Assembly (NCBI GenBank): GCA_016290885.1
Contig: JAEEVN010000011.1
Coordinates: 1 to 34,752, forward strand
DNA length: 34,752 nt
Source of the DNA: Caryophanales bacterium
GTDB taxonomy: Bacteria > Bacillota_I > Bacilli_A > RF39 > UBA660
Direction of reading: 5' to 3'
A program made the position numbers and the translations under genes. Position 1 is the first letter of the stretch. Every line of letters begins with the position of its first letter. The notes under the pieces are model-generated. The model was not told where the DNA came from. It made no database searches and was given only the letters and a program-made list of their open reading frames with translations. Below are positions 4,268 to 25,552 of the stretch, piece by piece.

Positions 4268-4296
4268 TTGCCAAAATATAGATTTTATGCTAAAAT
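4268..4296 (+). promoter_or_regulatory. Promoter of def
   Basis: TTGCCA (4268-4273), a 17-base spacer ending in TGC, then TAAAAT (4291-4296), 25 bases before the def ATG at 4322. Spacing and extended -10 fit a vegetative sigma factor. The reading frame is open through this stretch, but the promoter and the ribosome site at 4305-4311 argue that it is not coding. Confidence 0.75.
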
Positions 4297-4321
4297 ACCT
4301 TGCGTAGGTGGTGAAAAAGGA

Positions 4322-4870
4322 ATGATTAGGAGTAAAGATATTATCGACGAATATGATAAAAGAATAAGATTAATTAGTAAAGAAGTTACATTCCCACTAG
4401 ATAAAAAAACATTAAAAACTATCGAAGATATCAAAATAATGCTTAAAAACAGTCAAATAGAAGAATTATCTAAAAAGTATGATTTAAGACCTGGTATGGG
4501 TCTTAGTGCAATCCAATTAGGTATTGCAAAAAGATATTTCGTAGTAGTTTATGAATATGAAGAAGGAAAATTTGAAAACTATGTAGTTATCAATCCTAAA
4601 ATCCTTAGTGAATCTGAAGAAAAGATTTATGTAGAAGAAGGAGAAGGATGTCTTAGTATAAATAGACCTATTGAAGGTATAGTTCCAAGAAGTGCTAGAA
4701 TTAAAGTTGAATTCTATAATGAAAAAGGAGAAAAACAAATATTAAGATTAAGAGAAGAACTAGCAATAGTATTCCAACATGAAATAGATCATTTAAATGG
4801 TATATTATTCTATGATAGAATAGATAAAAAAGATCCATTTAAAAATGCAAATAAATATAGAGCAATATAA
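4322..4870 (+). CDS. def: Peptide deformylase
   Basis: Removes the N-formyl group from nascent proteins; a metal-dependent cytoplasmic hydrolase. All three active-site motifs are visible: GMGLSAIQLG (GxGLAAxQ), EGCLS with the metal-binding Cys, and QHEIDHLNG with the two His ligands and the catalytic Glu. The insert between the first two motifs is that of the longer type 2 enzyme of Gram-positives. I chose the ATG at 4322 (182 residues) rather than the TTG 54 bases upstream: AGGTGG precedes it by about 10 bases, the N-terminus then matches family length, and the upstream stretch is the promoter. It converges on the sigma-like gene, sharing a terminator hairpin. Confidence 0.95.
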   Translation: MIRSKDIIDEYDKRIRLISKEVTFPLDKKTLKTIEDIKIMLKNSQIEELSKKYDLRPGMGLSAIQLGIAKRYFVVVYEYEEGKFENYVVINPKILSESEEKIYVEEGEGCLSINRPIEGIVPRSARIKVEFYNEKGEKQILRLREELAIVFQHEIDHLNGILFYDRIDKKDPFKNANKYRAI

Positions 4871-4896
4871 AAGATAGTCATTATTGACTATCTTTT
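4869..4896. terminator. Bidirectional terminator between def and the sigma-like gene
   Basis: Perfect 12-base-pair hairpin, AAAAGATAGTCA / TGACTATCTTTT, with a TTAT loop. It directly follows the def stop on the plus strand. On the minus strand the 5' arm encodes the last residues (KDSQ) of the sigma-like protein and the loop holds its TAA. The same hairpin recurs at 7027-7058. Confidence 0.8.
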
Positions 4897-6968
4897 ATAT
4901 TGTCTTCTCTAGGTATTAACTTCTTTTTATAAGGACCACGTACATATTTATTTGGAATAGGTTTTACAGTTATAGTTATTTCATATCTAGCCTTATCAGT
5001 TTTTACATTTATTGTGGATTTGCCTGTCTTTAAAGGAGTTATATTTCCATTCTCATCTAATTCAATATTATCATTTGTTTTAACTGTCATCTCAAAACCA
5101 GGATCAAGAGAATTAAAATCAGACATTTTATATATATTCATCGAATCATCAAGATGTATAGAATGAGAAATTTTAATAATAGGACTGGTATTTTCAATAA
5201 ACGGTCTAACTTCATCTCCTACTTTTTCCACTATTTGTCTTATCCTTTCTCTAGTTAAATCAAAAAGTTTACCTGTATCATCAAGTGTTAATACTAATCT
5301 AGTATCACTCTTACTTTCTGGGAATAAAACACCATTATAGTTTCTTCTATTTAAAAATCTTTCTGCAGTTAAATATACATTTTCTTTTAGTATGCCATAA
5401 GATAAGCCTGTCCTATAAGCATATACTAAAGCTTTTCTTTCTCCAGAAGAAATAGATATTTCTTTCTTACCTTCAAATGTATATTCTGGAGTAAAACCAT
5501 ATCTATCTAAGAATTCTTGGAATCTCTTTCTCTTTTCATCTCTAGAAAGTTTTTTATCTACTAATGCATCATATTCTTTATCACTAATAAGAATAATGTG
5601 TTTCTTCTTTTTTGGATCACCAAAAGTTAATTGAACATATTTATTAACTACATTTTTTTCTTTTTCTACATAGTTATCAAGTATTTTTTTAATACCCTCT
5701 ATCATTGAAGTTCTTTCTGCATAATCTTCAGTCTTTTCATCTTTTTCAGATGTTAAGAATTCTATTAAAGGTGAATCTTCATCTTCACCTACAGTTTTAT
5801 CTATAGAAGTTGGATTACTAATTTGTTTTGCACTTAATGCAGCTTTTATTTGGTCTTTATTATATGGTAATCCATTTTCTTGACATTTTTCATATATAAG
5901 ATCAACACCTGGTTCTTCAATTCCATATTCTGATTCTAGTTGTGCAATTATTCTTTTAATTTTATATATTCTTATATTCATGTTAGCAGGTATTCTAATT
6001 GTACTTCCTGTTTTTTCTAATGCTCTAATAACAGCTTGTCTTATCCATGGAACTGCCATAGTACTAAACTTTTTACCATTTGGTTCAAATTTGTTAATTG
6101 CTTTTAATAAACCCATTCTTCCTTCTTGCTCTAAATCATCTAATGACACACCAAGATTAAGATATCTACATGCCACTTTTATTACTAACCTATAATTATT
6201 AAGTGCAATGTCATCACGGATCATTTTCATAGCTTCAATTATCTCAGCTATTTCTGGATCATTTTGAACAGCTACAACAACTGGATCATCTGTTTCCCTA
6301 AATAATTCTCCCATTGCTTTAACAATGAACTTATCCTTATTCTTACCTCTACTTCTTTGTTCCATTTCATCATTATCATATAATTTTTCAATATGTTCTC
6401 TAAATGCTATAAATTCAGGTTTCTTTTTTCGATAAGAAAGATATCCTTCTAATCTTACTTTTAACCAGTCATATTTAGAGAAAACTAAATATTCTTTTAA
6501 ATCAGTAGGATATATTGGATATTTTTTAGCATCACGATAAGCTGCCTTTACTATTTTAAATGTATCATCTTTTTTTAGTTCTTCTGCTTCAGATTTAGGC
6601 ATATCATCTATTTCCATATCGTATATATTAGTTGTATCTTCCTCTTCTAAATCTTCCTCTTCAAATTCAGCAGCACTTTTTTTAAGCAGTTTAATTAATT
6701 TATTTGTATCTTCACTAGCTAGTGCATATTCTTTTAAATCATCATCATTTATTAATTCATCTGCAAGGTCTTTATTAATAGGAAATTTCGCACTAGTTAA
6801 TACTTCACATAACATATTAATAGCAGTTTCTACATCATATTTTTCTTTTAATTGATCATAGATATTTGACGCTCTATCTATAGTAATTTTCCCTAAATAT
6901 TCTTTAACTTCCTCTTCATCATCAAAAGAAAAAATGTCCTTTATTATTTCAACACTCTTATTTTTCAT
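4881..6968 (-). CDS. Divergent sigma-70 family protein with an Ig-like C-terminal domain
   Basis: A 695-residue protein, about twice the length of SigA. Residues 1-100 form a helical domain with no known match, followed by an acidic linker (about 100-130). Residues about 240-400 are a clear sigma region 2-3: LNNYRLVIKVACRYLNLG, DDLEQEGRMGLLKAINKFEP, KKFSTMAVPWIRQAVIRAL and TIRIPANM. Region 4.2 is present near 566-583 (LFDLTRERIRQIVEKVGDEV), but region 4.1 is replaced by an insert of about 110 residues. The tail (about 590-680) looks like a bacterial Ig-like (BIG2) domain: DENGNITPLKTGKSTINV then ITITVKP. In region 2.3/2.4 the usual YATWWIRQAIT reads MAVPWIRQAVI, so aromatic residues used in promoter melting are changed. 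AGGGGTG lies 5 bases before the ATG. Sigma relationship is firm; promoter preference unknown. Confidence 0.85.
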   Translation of the reverse strand: MKNKSVEIIKDIFSFDDEEEVKEYLGKITIDRASNIYDQLKEKYDVETAINMLCEVLTSAKFPINKDLADELINDDDLKEYALASEDTNKLIKLLKKSAAEFEEEDLEEEDTTNIYDMEIDDMPKSEAEELKKDDTFKIVKAAYRDAKKYPIYPTDLKEYLVFSKYDWLKVRLEGYLSYRKKKPEFIAFREHIEKLYDNDEMEQRSRGKNKDKFIVKAMGELFRETDDPVVVAVQNDPEIAEIIEAMKMIRDDIALNNYRLVIKVACRYLNLGVSLDDLEQEGRMGLLKAINKFEPNGKKFSTMAVPWIRQAVIRALEKTGSTIRIPANMNIRIYKIKRIIAQLESEYGIEEPGVDLIYEKCQENGLPYNKDQIKAALSAKQISNPTSIDKTVGEDEDSPLIEFLTSEKDEKTEDYAERTSMIEGIKKILDNYVEKEKNVVNKYVQLTFGDPKKKKHIILISDKEYDALVDKKLSRDEKRKRFQEFLDRYGFTPEYTFEGKKEISISSGERKALVYAYRTGLSYGILKENVYLTAERFLNRRNYNGVLFPESKSDTRLVLTLDDTGKLFDLTRERIRQIVEKVGDEVRPFIENTSPIIKISHSIHLDDSMNIYKMSDFNSLDPGFEMTVKTNDNIELDENGNITPLKTGKSTINVKTDKARYEITITVKPIPNKYVRGPYKKKLIPREDNIKDSQ

Positions 6969-6995: not shown

Positions 6996-7023
6996 ATTAT
7001 AACATAATAATTAAAAATATCAA
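6996..7023 (-). promoter_or_regulatory. Promoter of the sigma-like gene
   Basis: Minus strand TTGATA (7023-7018), 16-base spacer ending in TGT, then TATAAT (7001-6996), some 27 bases before the start codon. The spacer and -10 are almost the same as at the paralogue's promoter (8190-8217). Confidence 0.8.
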
Positions 7024-7026
7024 ATC

Positions 7027-7058
7027 AAAAAAGATAGTCATTATTGACTATCTTTTTT
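7027..7058 (-). terminator. Terminator of the core-less sigma paralogue
   Basis: A 14-base-pair stem, AAAAAAGATAGTCA and its complement, around a four-base loop. The 5' arm encodes the final KDSQ residues and the loop holds the TAA. It is identical in core sequence to the hairpin at 4869-4896. Confidence 0.8.
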
Positions 7059-8162
7059 ATCCTCCTGTGGCATTAATTTCATTTTCTTTTTATGTAGGTA
7101 TGCATGTAATGATTGCTTTTGAGATGGACCAACCGAAAGAGTTATTTTTCTAACAACATTATTAGTTAAACTTCTAACACACATTTCTACGTTTCCCTCT
7201 TTAAGAGGTATTAATGTACTAGTTGAAGGGTCATATGCAACATATTCATTTGCTGGAAGATCAACAACATAGCAACTTAAATCTCTTATATTAAATACGC
7301 TAAATAAGCTTTCATTTTGTCCCATAAACATCTTTTGTGTCCCTAAGTCTCTTATCTCTATTTCATTATCACTATTGAAATCTATATTTAACGTTATTGG
7401 TTGTTCCTCATTTTTTTCTCTTCTTAATGAGCCCTCAGGCATATTAAATAACTTTTCAAGATGAGCAGCAGTTATCCCTGATAATATTTCTGTTTTTGGA
7501 ATAAGAGCATAATTACAATTTCTTCCCTCAAGGAATCTATGTTCTTTTACTCCTAAAATCCCATGTCTAATATTAAGAATCATTTCTTCTCTTTCTTTAG
7601 CAGTTATTGTCCATGGGTGTACTCTAGTTTCTTTAATGCTCATTGGAGATACTTTATATTCCCTAAAGATCTTAGCTACCTTGTCTCTACGTCCATTTTC
7701 CGCTAAAGATGTCATTTCCCCATATTCTTCATCAGAAAAAAGTATTTTAACTATATTGTCATATGTTGTTTTTATTGTAAATTCATAATATGTAAATTTG
7801 GTCTTTTCTGTTTTTTTAAGAACTACAGCTTTTTGTTGAGCAGGTGTAGTTTTATAATCTCTTAATATTCTAACAAGTTCCCCTTTTTTTACTCTTTTAT
7901 CATTTAAGAATTTAACTAAATGTTTATCTGTTAATAATGCATTTGCTACTTCTTCACTAATAGTAAATCCTGTTAATTGAAGTATTGTATCTATACATTT
8001 AGAAGTTTCAGGTGCACTTAATCTTTCTCTTAGTTTTTGATAAATATTAACGAATCCTTGATCATTCATATCTCTGAATTTCGCTTCAAGAGAAGTATAG
8101 TCTCCTTCTATACCTAATGTATTTGCAACAATAGCTACATCTTTATAATCAATTACTGCCAT
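7041..8162 (-). CDS. Core-less paralogue of the neighbouring sigma-like protein
   Basis: A 373-residue protein related to the downstream 695-residue sigma-like protein along both ends but lacking the whole region 2-3 core. Shared parts: an N-terminal helical domain with an IYQKL / IYDQL motif; a middle block (FSDEEYGEM against ISDKEYDAL, then TAKEREEMILNIRHGILGV against SSGERKALVYAYRTGLSYG); a degenerate region 4.2-like helix pair (GITAAHLEKLFNMPEGSLRR against TLDDTGKLFDLTRERIRQ); an Ig-like tail (TLIPLKEGNVEMCV) and a KKKMKLMPQEDKKDSQ end. The second ATG, at 8162, is preferred because AGGGGATG sits directly upstream at the same spacing as in the paralogue; an ATG at 8168 is too close to that site. 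A partner, competitor or regulator of the sigma-like protein is possible but inferred. Confidence 0.75.
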   Translation of the reverse strand: MAVIDYKDVAIVANTLGIEGDYTSLEAKFRDMNDQGFVNIYQKLRERLSAPETSKCIDTILQLTGFTISEEVANALLTDKHLVKFLNDKRVKKGELVRILRDYKTTPAQQKAVVLKKTEKTKFTYYEFTIKTTYDNIVKILFSDEEYGEMTSLAENGRRDKVAKIFREYKVSPMSIKETRVHPWTITAKEREEMILNIRHGILGVKEHRFLEGRNCNYALIPKTEILSGITAAHLEKLFNMPEGSLRREKNEEQPITLNIDFNSDNEIEIRDLGTQKMFMGQNESLFSVFNIRDLSCYVVDLPANEYVAYDPSTSTLIPLKEGNVEMCVRSLTNNVVRKITLSVGPSQKQSLHAYLHKKKMKLMPQEDKKDSQ

Positions 8163-8189
8163 AAACATCCCCTCTTTAAGAATGCATAT

Positions 8190-8217
8190 ATTATAACATA
8201 ATTAAAAAAATTAGCAA
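8190..8217 (-). promoter_or_regulatory. Promoter of the core-less sigma paralogue
   Basis: Minus strand TTGCTA (8217-8212), 16-base spacer ending in TGT, then TATAAT (8195-8190). Its -35 lies in the 3' arm of the murC terminator. Spacer and -10 resemble those of the sigma-like gene. Confidence 0.75.
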
Positions 8218-8234
8218 ATTTTATAATTTGCTAA
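8204..8234 (-). terminator. Terminator of murC
   Basis: Minus strand TTAGCAAATT, loop ATAA, AATTTGCTAA, then a run of seven T. The murC TAA stop (8223-8221) lies in the loop, and the 5' arm encodes its last residues. Confidence 0.8.
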
Positions 8235-9522
8235 TTAAATCTTCTTTTAAATGAGATATACTTGCACAACTCATAAATACAAATACATTATCTTTATGAG
8301 TTAATAAATCAGATATATCACTTTCTAATAATAATTTACCCTTTTTAGAATTATCTAAAATCATATTAGAAGTTACACCAGGATAATCTTCTTGTTTTTC
8401 TCTATTACTATCAATATTAGTTACATATACATAATCTGCTATGTCTAGAGCATTTGCAAAATCTAAATAGAAGTCTTTTGTTCTAGAATAAGTATTAGGT
8501 TTAAATATTGCAATTATATCTTTATCTTTAAACTTTGCTTTAGCAGCTTCTAAAGTAACTTTTATTTCTGTTGGATGATGTGCATAATCATCAATTATAA
8601 TTGAGTTACCTACTTTTTCTTCCTGGAATCTTCTTTCTGCATTTTTAAAATCTTTTAATAAAGATTTAATAGTATCAAGTTCTATTCCTAGATTTAAACA
8701 AACGATAGTACATGCAGTAGCATTAAGTGCCATATGTCTTCCAAATACTGGAACCATTAGACTAACTAATAAATTATCATCTTTATATATATCAAAATAA
8801 GTTCCATCTTCTTTTACATCTATATTTTTAACTATATAATCATTATTATCATTTTCTCCATAATAAATAACATCTTTATCAAATTTAATTGATCTAATGT
8901 TTTCATTGTCTCCACAAACTACTGCATATTCTTTAGAATGATTTAAGAATTTGGAAAAACTATTAACTATATCAGGTAGTCCATCATAACATTCAGTATG
9001 TTCTAGTTCTATGTTAGTACATACTGATATAGATGGATGATATGCTAAGAAATGTTTATTATATTCATCTGATTCAATTACAAATAATTCATTTTCTTGA
9101 TTAGCATGTCCTCTTCCATCTCCTATGAAATAGTTGCATCCTAAAGTATTATTAACTACATGACTAATCATTGAAGAAGTAGTTGTTTTACCATGTGTTC
9201 CACATACTGATATAGTTCTAAATTTAGAAGTTAAATCTCCAATTATTTCATTATATGGAGTTATATTAAATCCTAATTCTTTAATTCTTTTTATTTCTTT
9301 ATGATCTTCACTAAATGCTTTAGAAGCAGTAATAATAGTATCACTATCTAATTCTTTAGTACCATCATAATATATTTTAATACCTCTTTGATCTAGTCCT
9401 TTTTCTGTAAATTTAAAATCTCTTACATCATCATAACCAGATACTTCATATCCAAGGTCACTTAGTAAACAAGCAAGTGTTGCCATACCAGAACCTTTAA
9501 CACCTATACAATAATATTTCAT
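8221..9522 (-). CDS. murC: UDP-N-acetylmuramate--L-alanine ligase
   Basis: A 433-residue cytoplasmic Mur ligase that adds L-alanine to UDP-MurNAc with ATP, the first step of peptidoglycan stem-peptide assembly. The N-terminal Rossmann-like domain starts GVKGSGMATLACLL; the ATP site is VCGTHGKTTTSSMI (about residue 108); the central domain has ELEHTECYD; the C-terminal domain contains DDYAHHPTEIK, typical of MurC. The DYAHHPTEI and short N-terminal domain separate it from MurD/E/F. It is a stand-alone unit with its own terminator and a TATAAT box upstream (9539-9544). AGGTG precedes the ATG by 5 bases. Length is normal to slightly short. Confidence 0.95.
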   Translation of the reverse strand: MKYYCIGVKGSGMATLACLLSDLGYEVSGYDDVRDFKFTEKGLDQRGIKIYYDGTKELDSDTIITASKAFSEDHKEIKRIKELGFNITPYNEIIGDLTSKFRTISVCGTHGKTTTSSMISHVVNNTLGCNYFIGDGRGHANQENELFVIESDEYNKHFLAYHPSISVCTNIELEHTECYDGLPDIVNSFSKFLNHSKEYAVVCGDNENIRSIKFDKDVIYYGENDNNDYIVKNIDVKEDGTYFDIYKDDNLLVSLMVPVFGRHMALNATACTIVCLNLGIELDTIKSLLKDFKNAERRFQEEKVGNSIIIDDYAHHPTEIKVTLEAAKAKFKDKDIIAIFKPNTYSRTKDFYLDFANALDIADYVYVTNIDSNREKQEDYPGVTSNMILDNSKKGKLLLESDISDLLTHKDNVFVFMSCASISHLKEDLISKL

Positions 9523-22702: not shown

Positions 22703-22731
22703 TAAAAAAAGAACGTTTAATACGTTCTTTT
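22703..22731 (-). terminator. Terminator of leuS
   Basis: Minus strand AAAAGAACG / CGTTCTTTT with a seven-base loop, then T-run. It begins at the leuS stop codon. Confidence 0.8.
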
Positions 22732-25552
22732 ATTTTATAACTATACTAACTAATTTCTTAGGTATATATATTTCTTTAACTATTTCTGCACCATCTAGAT
22801 ATTTCTTAACATTTTCTATTTCTCTAATCTTTACTTTAATATCTTCTTCTGTAATATCACTTGGTACTGTAACTTTACCTCTTACTTTACCATTTATTTG
22901 AACTACTACTTCGATATTTTCATCTATAGTCTTTGCTTCATCATACTTAGGCCAAGCACTGTAACATAGTTCATTGCCAAGGTTATATTTTTCATTTAAT
23001 TCTTCTGTTATATGTGGAGAGAAAGGATTAAGTAATTCTAATAAGATTCTATAATCTTTCTTAGAAAGTATTTTAGTATCATTAAATGAATTAACTAAAG
23101 TCATTAATGCTGAAATAGCAGTATTATATTTCATTTCTTCTAGATCTTCAGTTACTTTTTTAATAGTCTTATGAATCATCTTTTCATTTTCTTTAGATAT
23201 TTCATTACTATCATTTAATCTATCTCCAAGATTATATACTCTATCTAAGAATTTAGCACAACCTCTAAGAGCTTCCTCAGACCAAGCTGCATCTTTAGAA
23301 TAATCTCCAATAAACATTTCATAAAGTCTAAGTGCATCAGCACCATATTCATTAATCATATCAGTTGGATTAACTACATTACCTTTTGATTTACTCATTT
23401 TACTTTCATCAGATGCAAGTATCATACCATGAGCAATTCTTCTTTTAAATGGTTCACTATATGGTACTAAACCTTGTTCATGAAGGAATATATTCCAGAA
23501 TCTAGCATATAATAAGTGTCTTGTGGCATGTTCCATACCACCATCATATAAATCTACTTGTCCCCAATACTTTAAAGCATCCATATTAGCTATTCCAGTA
23601 TCACATTTAGGATCCATATATCTTAACCAATACCAACTTGATCCTGCCCAGTTAGGCATAGTATCTGTTTCTCTTTTAGCATCTTTTCCACATTTTGGAC
23701 ATTTACAATTTACAAACTCTGGCATTTTAGCAAGTGGACTTTCTCCATCAGTACCAACTTCAAAGTTTTCAACAGGTGGTAAACGAAGTGGTAATTCTTC
23801 ATAAGGAACACCAACATCTCCACAATGAGGGCAATGTATAATTGGAATTGGTTCACCCCAATATCTTTGTCTATTAAATGCCCAATCTTTCATTTTATAT
23901 TGAACAGCTTTTTCACCTATTTTTTTCTTCTCTAAGAATTTGATTACTGTTTCAATAGCTTCACTCTTATTTAAACCATCTAATATTTCAGAATTAATAT
24001 GAGTTCCATCGCCAATCATAGCACCTGGATTATTTAAATATGTAAAACATTTAGCATGAAGTTCATCTTTAATATCATTTTCAACTTCTTTTTTGCTAAC
24101 CCATTCAACTACAAATTTTTCATCATCATCTAATTCTTGTTCATCTCTCTTATCACTATTTAATTTAAATAAAATAGGAGTTGCTTCTATATTAAAATAT
24201 TTATCTTTATTAAAAGCATAATAATGATGATTAATTTTAAATCCTTCTCTAACAAGAGATATATCTGTATATCCTGTTTCTTCTTTTATTTCACGAATAG
24301 CACATTCTACTGGCGTTTCTCCATCTTTAATAGTTCCACCAATAAATAATCTACCACCTAATTTATTCCAATTAAGAGTTAAATATTTATTATTCTTTTC
24401 ATCATAAACTACAGCTACTATTGAATTCTTTTTAGATTCATCTTTATTTTGTGTACCTGTAACTTCTTCAAGAACTTGAATAATTGGAATATTAAATCTC
24501 ATAGCAAAATCATAATCTCTTTGGTCATGTGCTGGTACAGCCATAATAGCACCAGTACCATAACCCATCATTACATAGTCTGCTACAAAAACAGGAATTT
24601 CAGCATCATTAACTGGATCAATAGCTTTAATACCTTTAATTTCAACACCAGTTTTATCTTTTTGTAATTCTACTCTTTCAAACTCAGTTTTCTTTTTAGC
24701 TTCTTCTTTATATGCGATTATTTCATCATAGTTTTCAATCTTTTTCTTTAATTTTTCAACAAGAGGATGTTCTGGTGCAATAACCATGAATGTAGCACCA
24801 TATAATGTATCAGGTCTTGTTGTATAAACTTTTAATGATTCTTTTGTATCTTTAATTTTAAAAGTAACAAATGCTCCTGTTGATTTACCTATCCAATTTT
24901 CTTGTTGAGTTTTAATATTTGGTAAATAATCAACATCTTTTAATCCTTCTAATAATTTATCAGCATATTCAGTTATTCTTAAATACCAAACATCTTTCTC
25001 TCTTTGAACTACTTCATTATGACAAACATCACATTTACCACCTTGTGAATCTTCATTAGAAAGAACTACTCTACATGATGGACAATAATTAACTAATGTT
25101 TTATCTCTAAAAACAAGTCCATTATCAAACATCTTTAAGAAAATCCATTGAGTCCATTTATAATATTTTTCATCTGTTGTATCTACACATCTATCATAAT
25201 CAAATGAAAAACCAATTTGTTTTAATTGCTTAGTAAATACTTCTATATTTCTATCTGTTACTTTTCTTGGATGTGTTTTAGTTTTAATAGCATAGTTTTC
25301 TGTAGGAAGTCCAAATGCATCAAAACCTATTGGAAATAATACATTATAACCTTCCATTCTTCTTTTTCTAGATATTACTTCTAAACCAGAATAAGCTTTA
25401 ACATGTCCAATGTGCATACCAGCACCACTTGGATATGGAAATTCTACTAATCCATAGAATTTCTTTTTAGATTTATCTGTTCCTGTTTTAAAAGTTTTAT
25501 CTTTTTCCCATTTATCTTGCCATTTCTTTTCTATTTTTTTAAAATCATACAT
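22730..25552 (-). CDS. leuS: Leucyl-tRNA synthetase with an inserted Nudix domain
   Basis: A 940-residue class I synthetase, about 135 longer than the usual 805. It charges tRNA-Leu. Visible: FPYPSGAGMHIGHVKAY (HIGH, near 45), zinc-type Cys pairs (CPSC, CDVC), CP1 editing domain with TTRPDTLYGATF and MAVPAHDQRDYDFA, tRNA-side WAGSSWYWLRYMDP, KMSKSKGNVV near 718, and C-terminal VVVQINGKVRGKV. The extra length is one block (about 370-505) inside the editing domain, between FNIPIIQVLEE and GDGTHINSEILDGL. It holds a perfect Nudix box, GTIKDGETPVECAIREIKEETGY (G-x5-E-x7-REUxEExGU; near 402-426), with normal flanking strands. The start overlaps the upstream gene by 8 bases; GAAGG lies 8 bases before ATG. 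Controlled by a T-box further upstream. Confidence 0.96.
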   Translation of the reverse strand: MYDFKKIEKKWQDKWEKDKTFKTGTDKSKKKFYGLVEFPYPSGAGMHIGHVKAYSGLEVISRKRRMEGYNVLFPIGFDAFGLPTENYAIKTKTHPRKVTDRNIEVFTKQLKQIGFSFDYDRCVDTTDEKYYKWTQWIFLKMFDNGLVFRDKTLVNYCPSCRVVLSNEDSQGGKCDVCHNEVVQREKDVWYLRITEYADKLLEGLKDVDYLPNIKTQQENWIGKSTGAFVTFKIKDTKESLKVYTTRPDTLYGATFMVIAPEHPLVEKLKKKIENYDEIIAYKEEAKKKTEFERVELQKDKTGVEIKGIKAIDPVNDAEIPVFVADYVMMGYGTGAIMAVPAHDQRDYDFAMRFNIPIIQVLEEVTGTQNKDESKKNSIVAVVYDEKNNKYLTLNWNKLGGRLFIGGTIKDGETPVECAIREIKEETGYTDISLVREGFKINHHYYAFNKDKYFNIEATPILFKLNSDKRDEQELDDDEKFVVEWVSKKEVENDIKDELHAKCFTYLNNPGAMIGDGTHINSEILDGLNKSEAIETVIKFLEKKKIGEKAVQYKMKDWAFNRQRYWGEPIPIIHCPHCGDVGVPYEELPLRLPPVENFEVGTDGESPLAKMPEFVNCKCPKCGKDAKRETDTMPNWAGSSWYWLRYMDPKCDTGIANMDALKYWGQVDLYDGGMEHATRHLLYARFWNIFLHEQGLVPYSEPFKRRIAHGMILASDESKMSKSKGNVVNPTDMINEYGADALRLYEMFIGDYSKDAAWSEEALRGCAKFLDRVYNLGDRLNDSNEISKENEKMIHKTIKKVTEDLEEMKYNTAISALMTLVNSFNDTKILSKKDYRILLELLNPFSPHITEELNEKYNLGNELCYSAWPKYDEAKTIDENIEVVVQINGKVRGKVTVPSDITEEDIKVKIREIENVKKYLDGAEIVKEIYIPKKLVSIVIK

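Follow-up and report, generated by a model that had tools for sequence, protein, structure and literature searches.

A duplicated sigma factor has turned into a core-less companion, and the duplication of its promoter and terminator is still legible in the DNA. Sequence comparison confirms that a 373-amino-acid protein encoded in the window (the whole stretch of 34,752 nt that was analysed, which is one contig of an AT-rich MAG of 1.11 Mb) is truly paralogous to the 695-amino-acid sigma protein encoded beside it, across the N-terminal domain and again over the part that runs from the insert before region 4 to the C-terminus. Judged by the matching signals at either end, the whole transcription unit of a secondary RpoD-like sigma (promoter, gene, and terminator) is shown to have undergone tandem duplication in the interval between murC and def. 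The murC-side copy then lost the linker and regions 2-3 (~330 codons), together with the region-4.2 recognition helix. By its reading frame the shortened gene is intact and not a decaying relic.

Tandem duplication of a sigma transcription unit

Both sigma-derived genes are on the minus strand and sit between murC (8221-9522, minus strand) and def (4268-4870, plus strand; the def ORF opens at TTG and the aligned start is at 4322). The core-less paralogue was identified from its ORF, its RBS, and homology tests, and it occupies 7041..8162 on the minus strand (373 codons plus stop), exactly as the preliminary description had placed it. The ATG at 8162 is the preferred start because an RBS, GAGGGG (8174-8169), sits 6 nt upstream; an in-frame ATG at 8168 has no comparable RBS spacing. 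The paralogue that keeps the core, a secondary RpoD-like sigma protein of 695 amino acids, is encoded at 4881..6968 (minus strand). The housekeeping RpoD is encoded elsewhere in the genome (C30), and the 695-residue protein is therefore an additional sigma. The source genome, G000, which appears to come from a lineage of the uncultured RF39/RFN20-type Bacilli, was compared with other members of its genus and its family. Further along the window, positions 22730-25552 encode a leucyl-tRNA synthetase in which an entire NUDIX domain is inserted beside the editing domain (NUDIX E 1.1e-12).

The predicted promoter of the 373-residue gene (8190..8217, minus strand; 10/12) reads TTGCTA-16-TATAAT with an extended -10 TG and lies where the murC terminator ends. 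That of the sigma gene (6996..7023, minus strand; 11/12) reads TTGATA-16-TATAAT and also has an extended -10. The two sites are near-copies of each other, are the two strongest promoter-like sites across a 3.6-kb stretch, and give the only two matches to this promoter in the window. The intrinsic terminator of the 373-residue gene (7026..7059, minus strand) overlaps the stop codon and encodes KKDSQ-stop, and the terminator of the sigma gene (4863..4902, minus strand) overlaps its stop codon too. The hairpin, AAAGATAGTCA-ATAA-TGACTATCTTT, includes the stop codon and is identical for both genes; its 26 bases occur exactly twice genome-wide, at the end of the 373-residue gene and at 4870-4895. 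A tandem duplication of the entire unit follows because the promoters match and the terminator hairpin is exclusive to these two genes.

A relative in the same genus, G009, has a single-copy sigma gene that can be compared with the pair. The G009 gene has a promoter that matches the murC-side one, and the DNA past the terminator of the second gene, that of the 695-residue sigma, matches the DNA past the G009 gene. The hairpin recurs at the end of the G009 homologue, altered by paired changes of G to A and C to T. On this evidence it is the RNA structure of the hairpin that fixes the last residues of both proteins. The common C-terminal KDSQ was considered as a sign of protein function and rejected, because the hairpin codes for these residues. 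Each gene is a separate transcription unit with its own promoter and terminator; they do not form a strict operon, and the separate promoters leave no operon-level argument for a joint function of the pair.

Has the shortened copy remained a gene? Its codon usage fits the genes of the window. In a neutral simulation, an ORF of this composition gained ~4 stops at 0.05 and ~13 at 0.2 substitutions per site, and none of the 2000 simulated copies stayed open at 0.2; the simulation assumes simple neutral substitution without indels and is thus conservative. Against both homologues the 373-residue gene shows dN of about 0.8-0.9 and dS of about 0.7-1.1, yet its reading frame is open. It is because the frame is open at a divergence beyond that survived by the simulated copies that decay is discounted.

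Domains kept and lost

Homology was tested with profiles built from two sigma proteins only, the 695-residue protein and its G009 homologue, so that the tests are not circular; a profile comparison that was circular (A6 against A5) was set aside. Ranked with 999 shuffled copies, the 373-residue protein came first of 1000 with the N-terminal-domain profile (E 3.8e-5), and its part from residue 114 to the end came first of 1000 at E 8.8e-11 with the profile that covers the insert, region 4, and tail. The sigma-core profile gave no match to the protein against 999 shuffled copies (E 26). An hhalign comparison of the single protein with the two-sigma profile reached E 1.8e-7 across residues 118-375. 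In pairwise shuffle tests the N-terminus, insert, region 4, and tail were each significant with one or both of the homologues. The weakest segment is the Ig-like tail alone without KDSQ (profile E 0.063, rank 2 of 1000; pairwise shuffles ~1e-4). Identity to the homologues is 20-28%, and the N-terminal domain, the insert, and the combined C-terminal stretch all score higher against the G009 homologue than against the neighbour.

These results uphold the anatomy given in the preliminary description, which had aligned the two proteins in the N-terminal domain, region-4 insert, degenerate 4.2-like helix, and tail; the tail by itself is weak, and the similarity is significant outside the shared C-terminal end. 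The absence of regions 2-3, also claimed there, is borne out by the core profile, by the lack of any Pfam match to region 2, and by the lack of core similarity to the paralogues. The region-4.2 helix was rightly called degenerate, being replaced and shortened and giving no Sigma70_r4 match.

Reading from the N-terminus (all on the minus strand), the protein begins with an all-helical domain common to the sigma protein (7854..8162), assigned by homology and modelled with pLDDT ~60-85. Kinship of this domain with the N-termini of other secondary sigmas or of RpoD was looked for and none was detected. A beta-beta-alpha-alpha-beta insert, again common to the sigma protein and seen by homology and in both models, directly precedes region 4.1 (7602..7805). 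It is followed by the retained region-4.1-like helix, ITAKEREEMILNIRHGI (7566..7601), and by an RFLxxRNxN motif in the insert between 4.1 and 4.2 (7512..7538), which is among the best conserved elements in the three proteins. The degenerate region 4.2 (7413..7472) has PEGSLRRE in place of TRERIRQI, the -35 recognition helix of the sigma, and then a deletion that shortens the helix. A Big_2/Ig-like tail, modelled with low confidence and weak alone, ends the protein (7044..7382). The domain order of the sigma is thus preserved, including the 4.1 motif and RFLxxRNxN. Separate structure predictions of the two proteins show the same all-helical N-terminal domain and the same insert running into the 4.1 helix; the models have low overall confidence (pTM 0.27 for the full sigma and 0.31), and that of the full sigma was read for secondary structure only. 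The tail resembles Big_2 domains with a Foldseek probability of 0.98-0.99 but an E of about 0.2. Its profile matches a Big_2 repeat protein in G023 (E 4e-7), and Pfam Big_2 matches are sub-threshold and found in the sigma proteins only.

A Pfam search of the 373-residue protein found no Sigma70_r4, no region 2 match, and no receiver domain; the region 2 and the region-4.2 helix-turn-helix that define membership of the sigma-70 family are both missing from it. The 695-residue neighbour has regions 2, 3, and 4, with both region 2 and the region-4 recognition helix recognisable. The Sigma70_r2 model (E 2.8e-14) and models of RpoD both match it, and its TRERIRQI helix is intact, with RpoD chains matched at E 1e-5 (A2 profile); its Pfam region 4 scores under the cut-off because of the insert. 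Like group 2 and other RpoD-like secondary sigmas, it groups with RpoD-like proteins. It differs from them in its extras (added sequence at the N-terminus, one insert ahead of region 4 and a second separating 4.1 from 4.2, and the Ig-like tail), in evolving far faster than RpoD, and in the loss of two region-2.3 melting aromatics. The Y430 position is M and the W433 position is P, while in the G009 homologue (L037:7008-8951) they are C and W; the Y430 position is conserved in almost every other sequence used for the tree. In sigma70, Y430 is key to the flipping of -11A. Both aromatics matter for promoter melting in E. coli sigma70 (PMC4496690).

Distribution and rates of change in the genus

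This sigma is present in only two of the 12 genomes of the genus (G000 and G009), and the pair in G000 only, a single MAG. In G009 the order is murC, a single sigma of 647 amino acids, and def, directly adjoining; in G002, G005, and G010 a different, long surface-type gene comes next after murC. No second pair was found among 60 mixed relatives, the 12 genus genomes, or a draw of 386 genomes from the family, and the family draw held no orthologue of the tail or of the N-terminal domain. Weak matches in G002, G006, G010, and G030 were discarded, as they fall in unrelated housekeeping or long ORFs. The preliminary description had treated the pair as a candidate regulatory system and had proposed a survey of related genomes for co-occurrence; none of the 11 congeners searched has the pair, nor does the family draw, an absence which that description had itself named as refuting its reading, so that a conserved two-protein system is unsupported. 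Scans of genome contigs (P0001; sigma alignment) and of viral contigs found no relative except generic sigma cores, and phage records contained no relative of the 373-residue protein; a phage origin of the pair was considered and is unsupported by these scans, which gave no specific relative.

Few parts of the gene-control machinery normally change as slowly as sigma factors. Between G000 and G009, the sigma at this locus is 38% identical (dN 0.58, dS 0.74, dN/dS ~0.8), compared with 71-93% for ten neighbouring genes (dN 0.04-0.18, dS 0.5-1.0, dN/dS 0.07-0.2) and 96% for RpoD. The fast change spans all domains and is least in region 2 (dN 0.42). A second RpoD-like sigma was observed between mnmE and mnmG in G008, G003, and G004 (L075:4242-5453, L076:4318-5523, L077:4643-5815); its identity is 38-45%, against mostly 73-93% for its neighbours, and its dN/dS values are 0.84 and 0.92. 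By comparison, a sporulation-type sigma in these genomes evolves at an ordinary rate (72-77% identity, dN/dS about 0.2). All these rates are NG86 estimates from few species, with AT-rich, partly saturated third positions and, for the fast genes, alignments at 38-45% identity.

Beside murC, G002, G005, and G010 carry region-4-only proteins of ~100 amino acids (L086:4029-4322, L087:6554-6868, L088:3515-3838), with Sigma70_r4 above the cut-off in both of the two tested. They are 42-49% identical, against 95-98% for murC. Like the 373-residue protein they are sigma-derived, core-less, near murC, and fast changing; they differ from it in length, in lying on the opposite side of murC, in their genuine Sigma70_r4 matches, and in having neither the shared N-terminal domain nor the tail. 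Between G010 and G002 the dS of the region-4-only gene is 0.69, against 0.17 for murC and 0.07 for the next gene (4 to 10 times its neighbours). Because this dS is so far above that of the neighbours, it suggests that divergent alleles of the gene have been exchanged or replaced. Very long RpoD-like proteins (700-1200 amino acids) also occur in the family (L069:1714-8111, L070:3635-6478, L067:4166-6298). Their C-terminal repeats resemble degenerate sigma region-4 units and two of them adjoin in G018; beside other long RpoD-like proteins in the fetched loci, no core-less copies were found.

The gene of the 373-residue protein would be one of a larger group of RpoD-derived genes that change fast in the genus, and their rate of change is a more surprising result than the pair itself. 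A narrow literature search found no paper on rapidly evolving RpoD paralogues or Ig-tailed sigma factors. What could drive such change? One conjecture, which is improbable as it stands, is that at housekeeping loci the extra sigmas and their core-less derivatives make up a system that diversifies. Its alleles would change through selection, and maybe also through exchange, under pressure from an antagonist, for example phage proteins that capture the sigma or its flap site; the 373-residue protein would then be a decoy that protects or tunes transcription.

Possible functions of the core-less paralogue

What could a sigma protein without its core do? The reading tentatively preferred here is that the 373-residue protein is a regulator or decoy of sigma descent, intact but non-initiating, which would compete for the partner of the sigma and in that way modulate the sigma or its holoenzyme. 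The product would be unable to initiate transcription. The partner-facing surfaces (N-terminal domain, insert, region-4.1 helix, and tail) are kept and would still bind what the sigma binds. In other sigmas the region 4.1 half packs on the beta-flap. If the 4.1-like helix binds the flap, as is assumed, the protein may act as a non-DNA-binding sigma mimic; it may compete for the RNAP flap or for a ligand of the shared domains, and so modulate the full sigma or the holoenzyme. A decoy or competitor is plausible as the most natural use of the remaining domains.

Known systems offer partial parallels. T4 gp33 is a region-4 mimic on the beta-flap that ignores the -35 element and represses basal transcription when fused to gp55 (PMC2988020). 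A sigma-derived protein could act in the same way, since gp33 shows that a flap-binding, DNA-blind mimic of region 4 can. Neither is a full sigma, and flap binding by the 373-residue protein, with its 4.1-like helix only, would be by analogy; gp33 is without sequence similarity to sigma, whereas the 373-residue protein descends from one and has extra domains. PhyR likewise has a sigma-derived domain that no longer initiates and acts by taking the partner of a real sigma. In PhyR, however, the domain is ECF-type, has a receiver domain attached, and captures NepR, an anti-sigma; Pfam found no receiver domain in the 373-residue protein, and no anti-sigma was noticed on reading the neighbouring ORFs. 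In SigO/RsoA of Bacillus subtilis, sigma regions are also spread unevenly over adjacent genes (PMC8103513). There, regions 2 and 4 are on separate proteins, whereas here the neighbour has all of them, and the pair is not a split sigma.

A two-protein polymerase accessory of that kind, which the preliminary description had entertained, is therefore unlikely, as the neighbour keeps regions 2, 3, and 4. More broadly, the 373-residue protein might pair with its neighbour or with the housekeeping sigma in a joint initiation complex, on the model of gp55/gp33 or SigO/RsoA. A protein that has accessory and region-4-like domains but no region 2 is what split sigmas would lead one to expect (PMC8103513, PMC2988020), and a neighbour deprived of two melting aromatics (Y430 to M, W433 to P) might need help; but the intact TRERIRQI helix beside the complete set of regions, and a G009 homologue that works or persists without such a partner, make this co-subunit role improbable. 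Of greater weight, if still doubtful, is an unrelated role in which the copy uses the shared domains detached from transcription, for example as a ligand- or nucleic-acid-binding adaptor. The strong divergence, the missing DNA-binding helix, and the separate promoter and terminator would all suit such a role, as would a Big_2-like tail and a private N-terminal domain that are atypical for sigmas. The retention of the 4.1 motif, RFLxxRNxN, and the sigma domain order, in a gene that still adjoins the sigma, argues against it.

It might also be supposed that the gene is a duplicate heading for loss and open by chance: it is found in one genome only, it has lost its core and DNA-binding helix, and the whole locus evolves fast. 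Its divergence is far past what an unselected ORF survives, and its RBS, promoter, terminator, and codon usage are good, so that this ranks just behind the co-subunit role among the improbable readings. Chance resemblance, or a common low-complexity tail, could at most be argued from last residues that are identical only through the terminator and from a tail that is weak alone. It is refuted by the segment shuffle tests, hhalign, the profile tests, and the hairpin confined to these two genes, since independent segments are significant without the tail, the genes are collinear and adjacent, and promoter and terminator are duplicated; its probability is close to nil.

The genus context gives the preferred reading, a sigma-derived regulator or decoy, its wider interest. 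Three kinds of RpoD-derived gene change there with almost no amino-acid constraint while their neighbours are conserved. Should the 373-residue protein bind RNAP or sigma, it would be a case of cellular sigma mimicry made directly from a sigma. Were such binding true, the fast change would point to conflict or to specialised sigma use in uncultured gut Bacilli.
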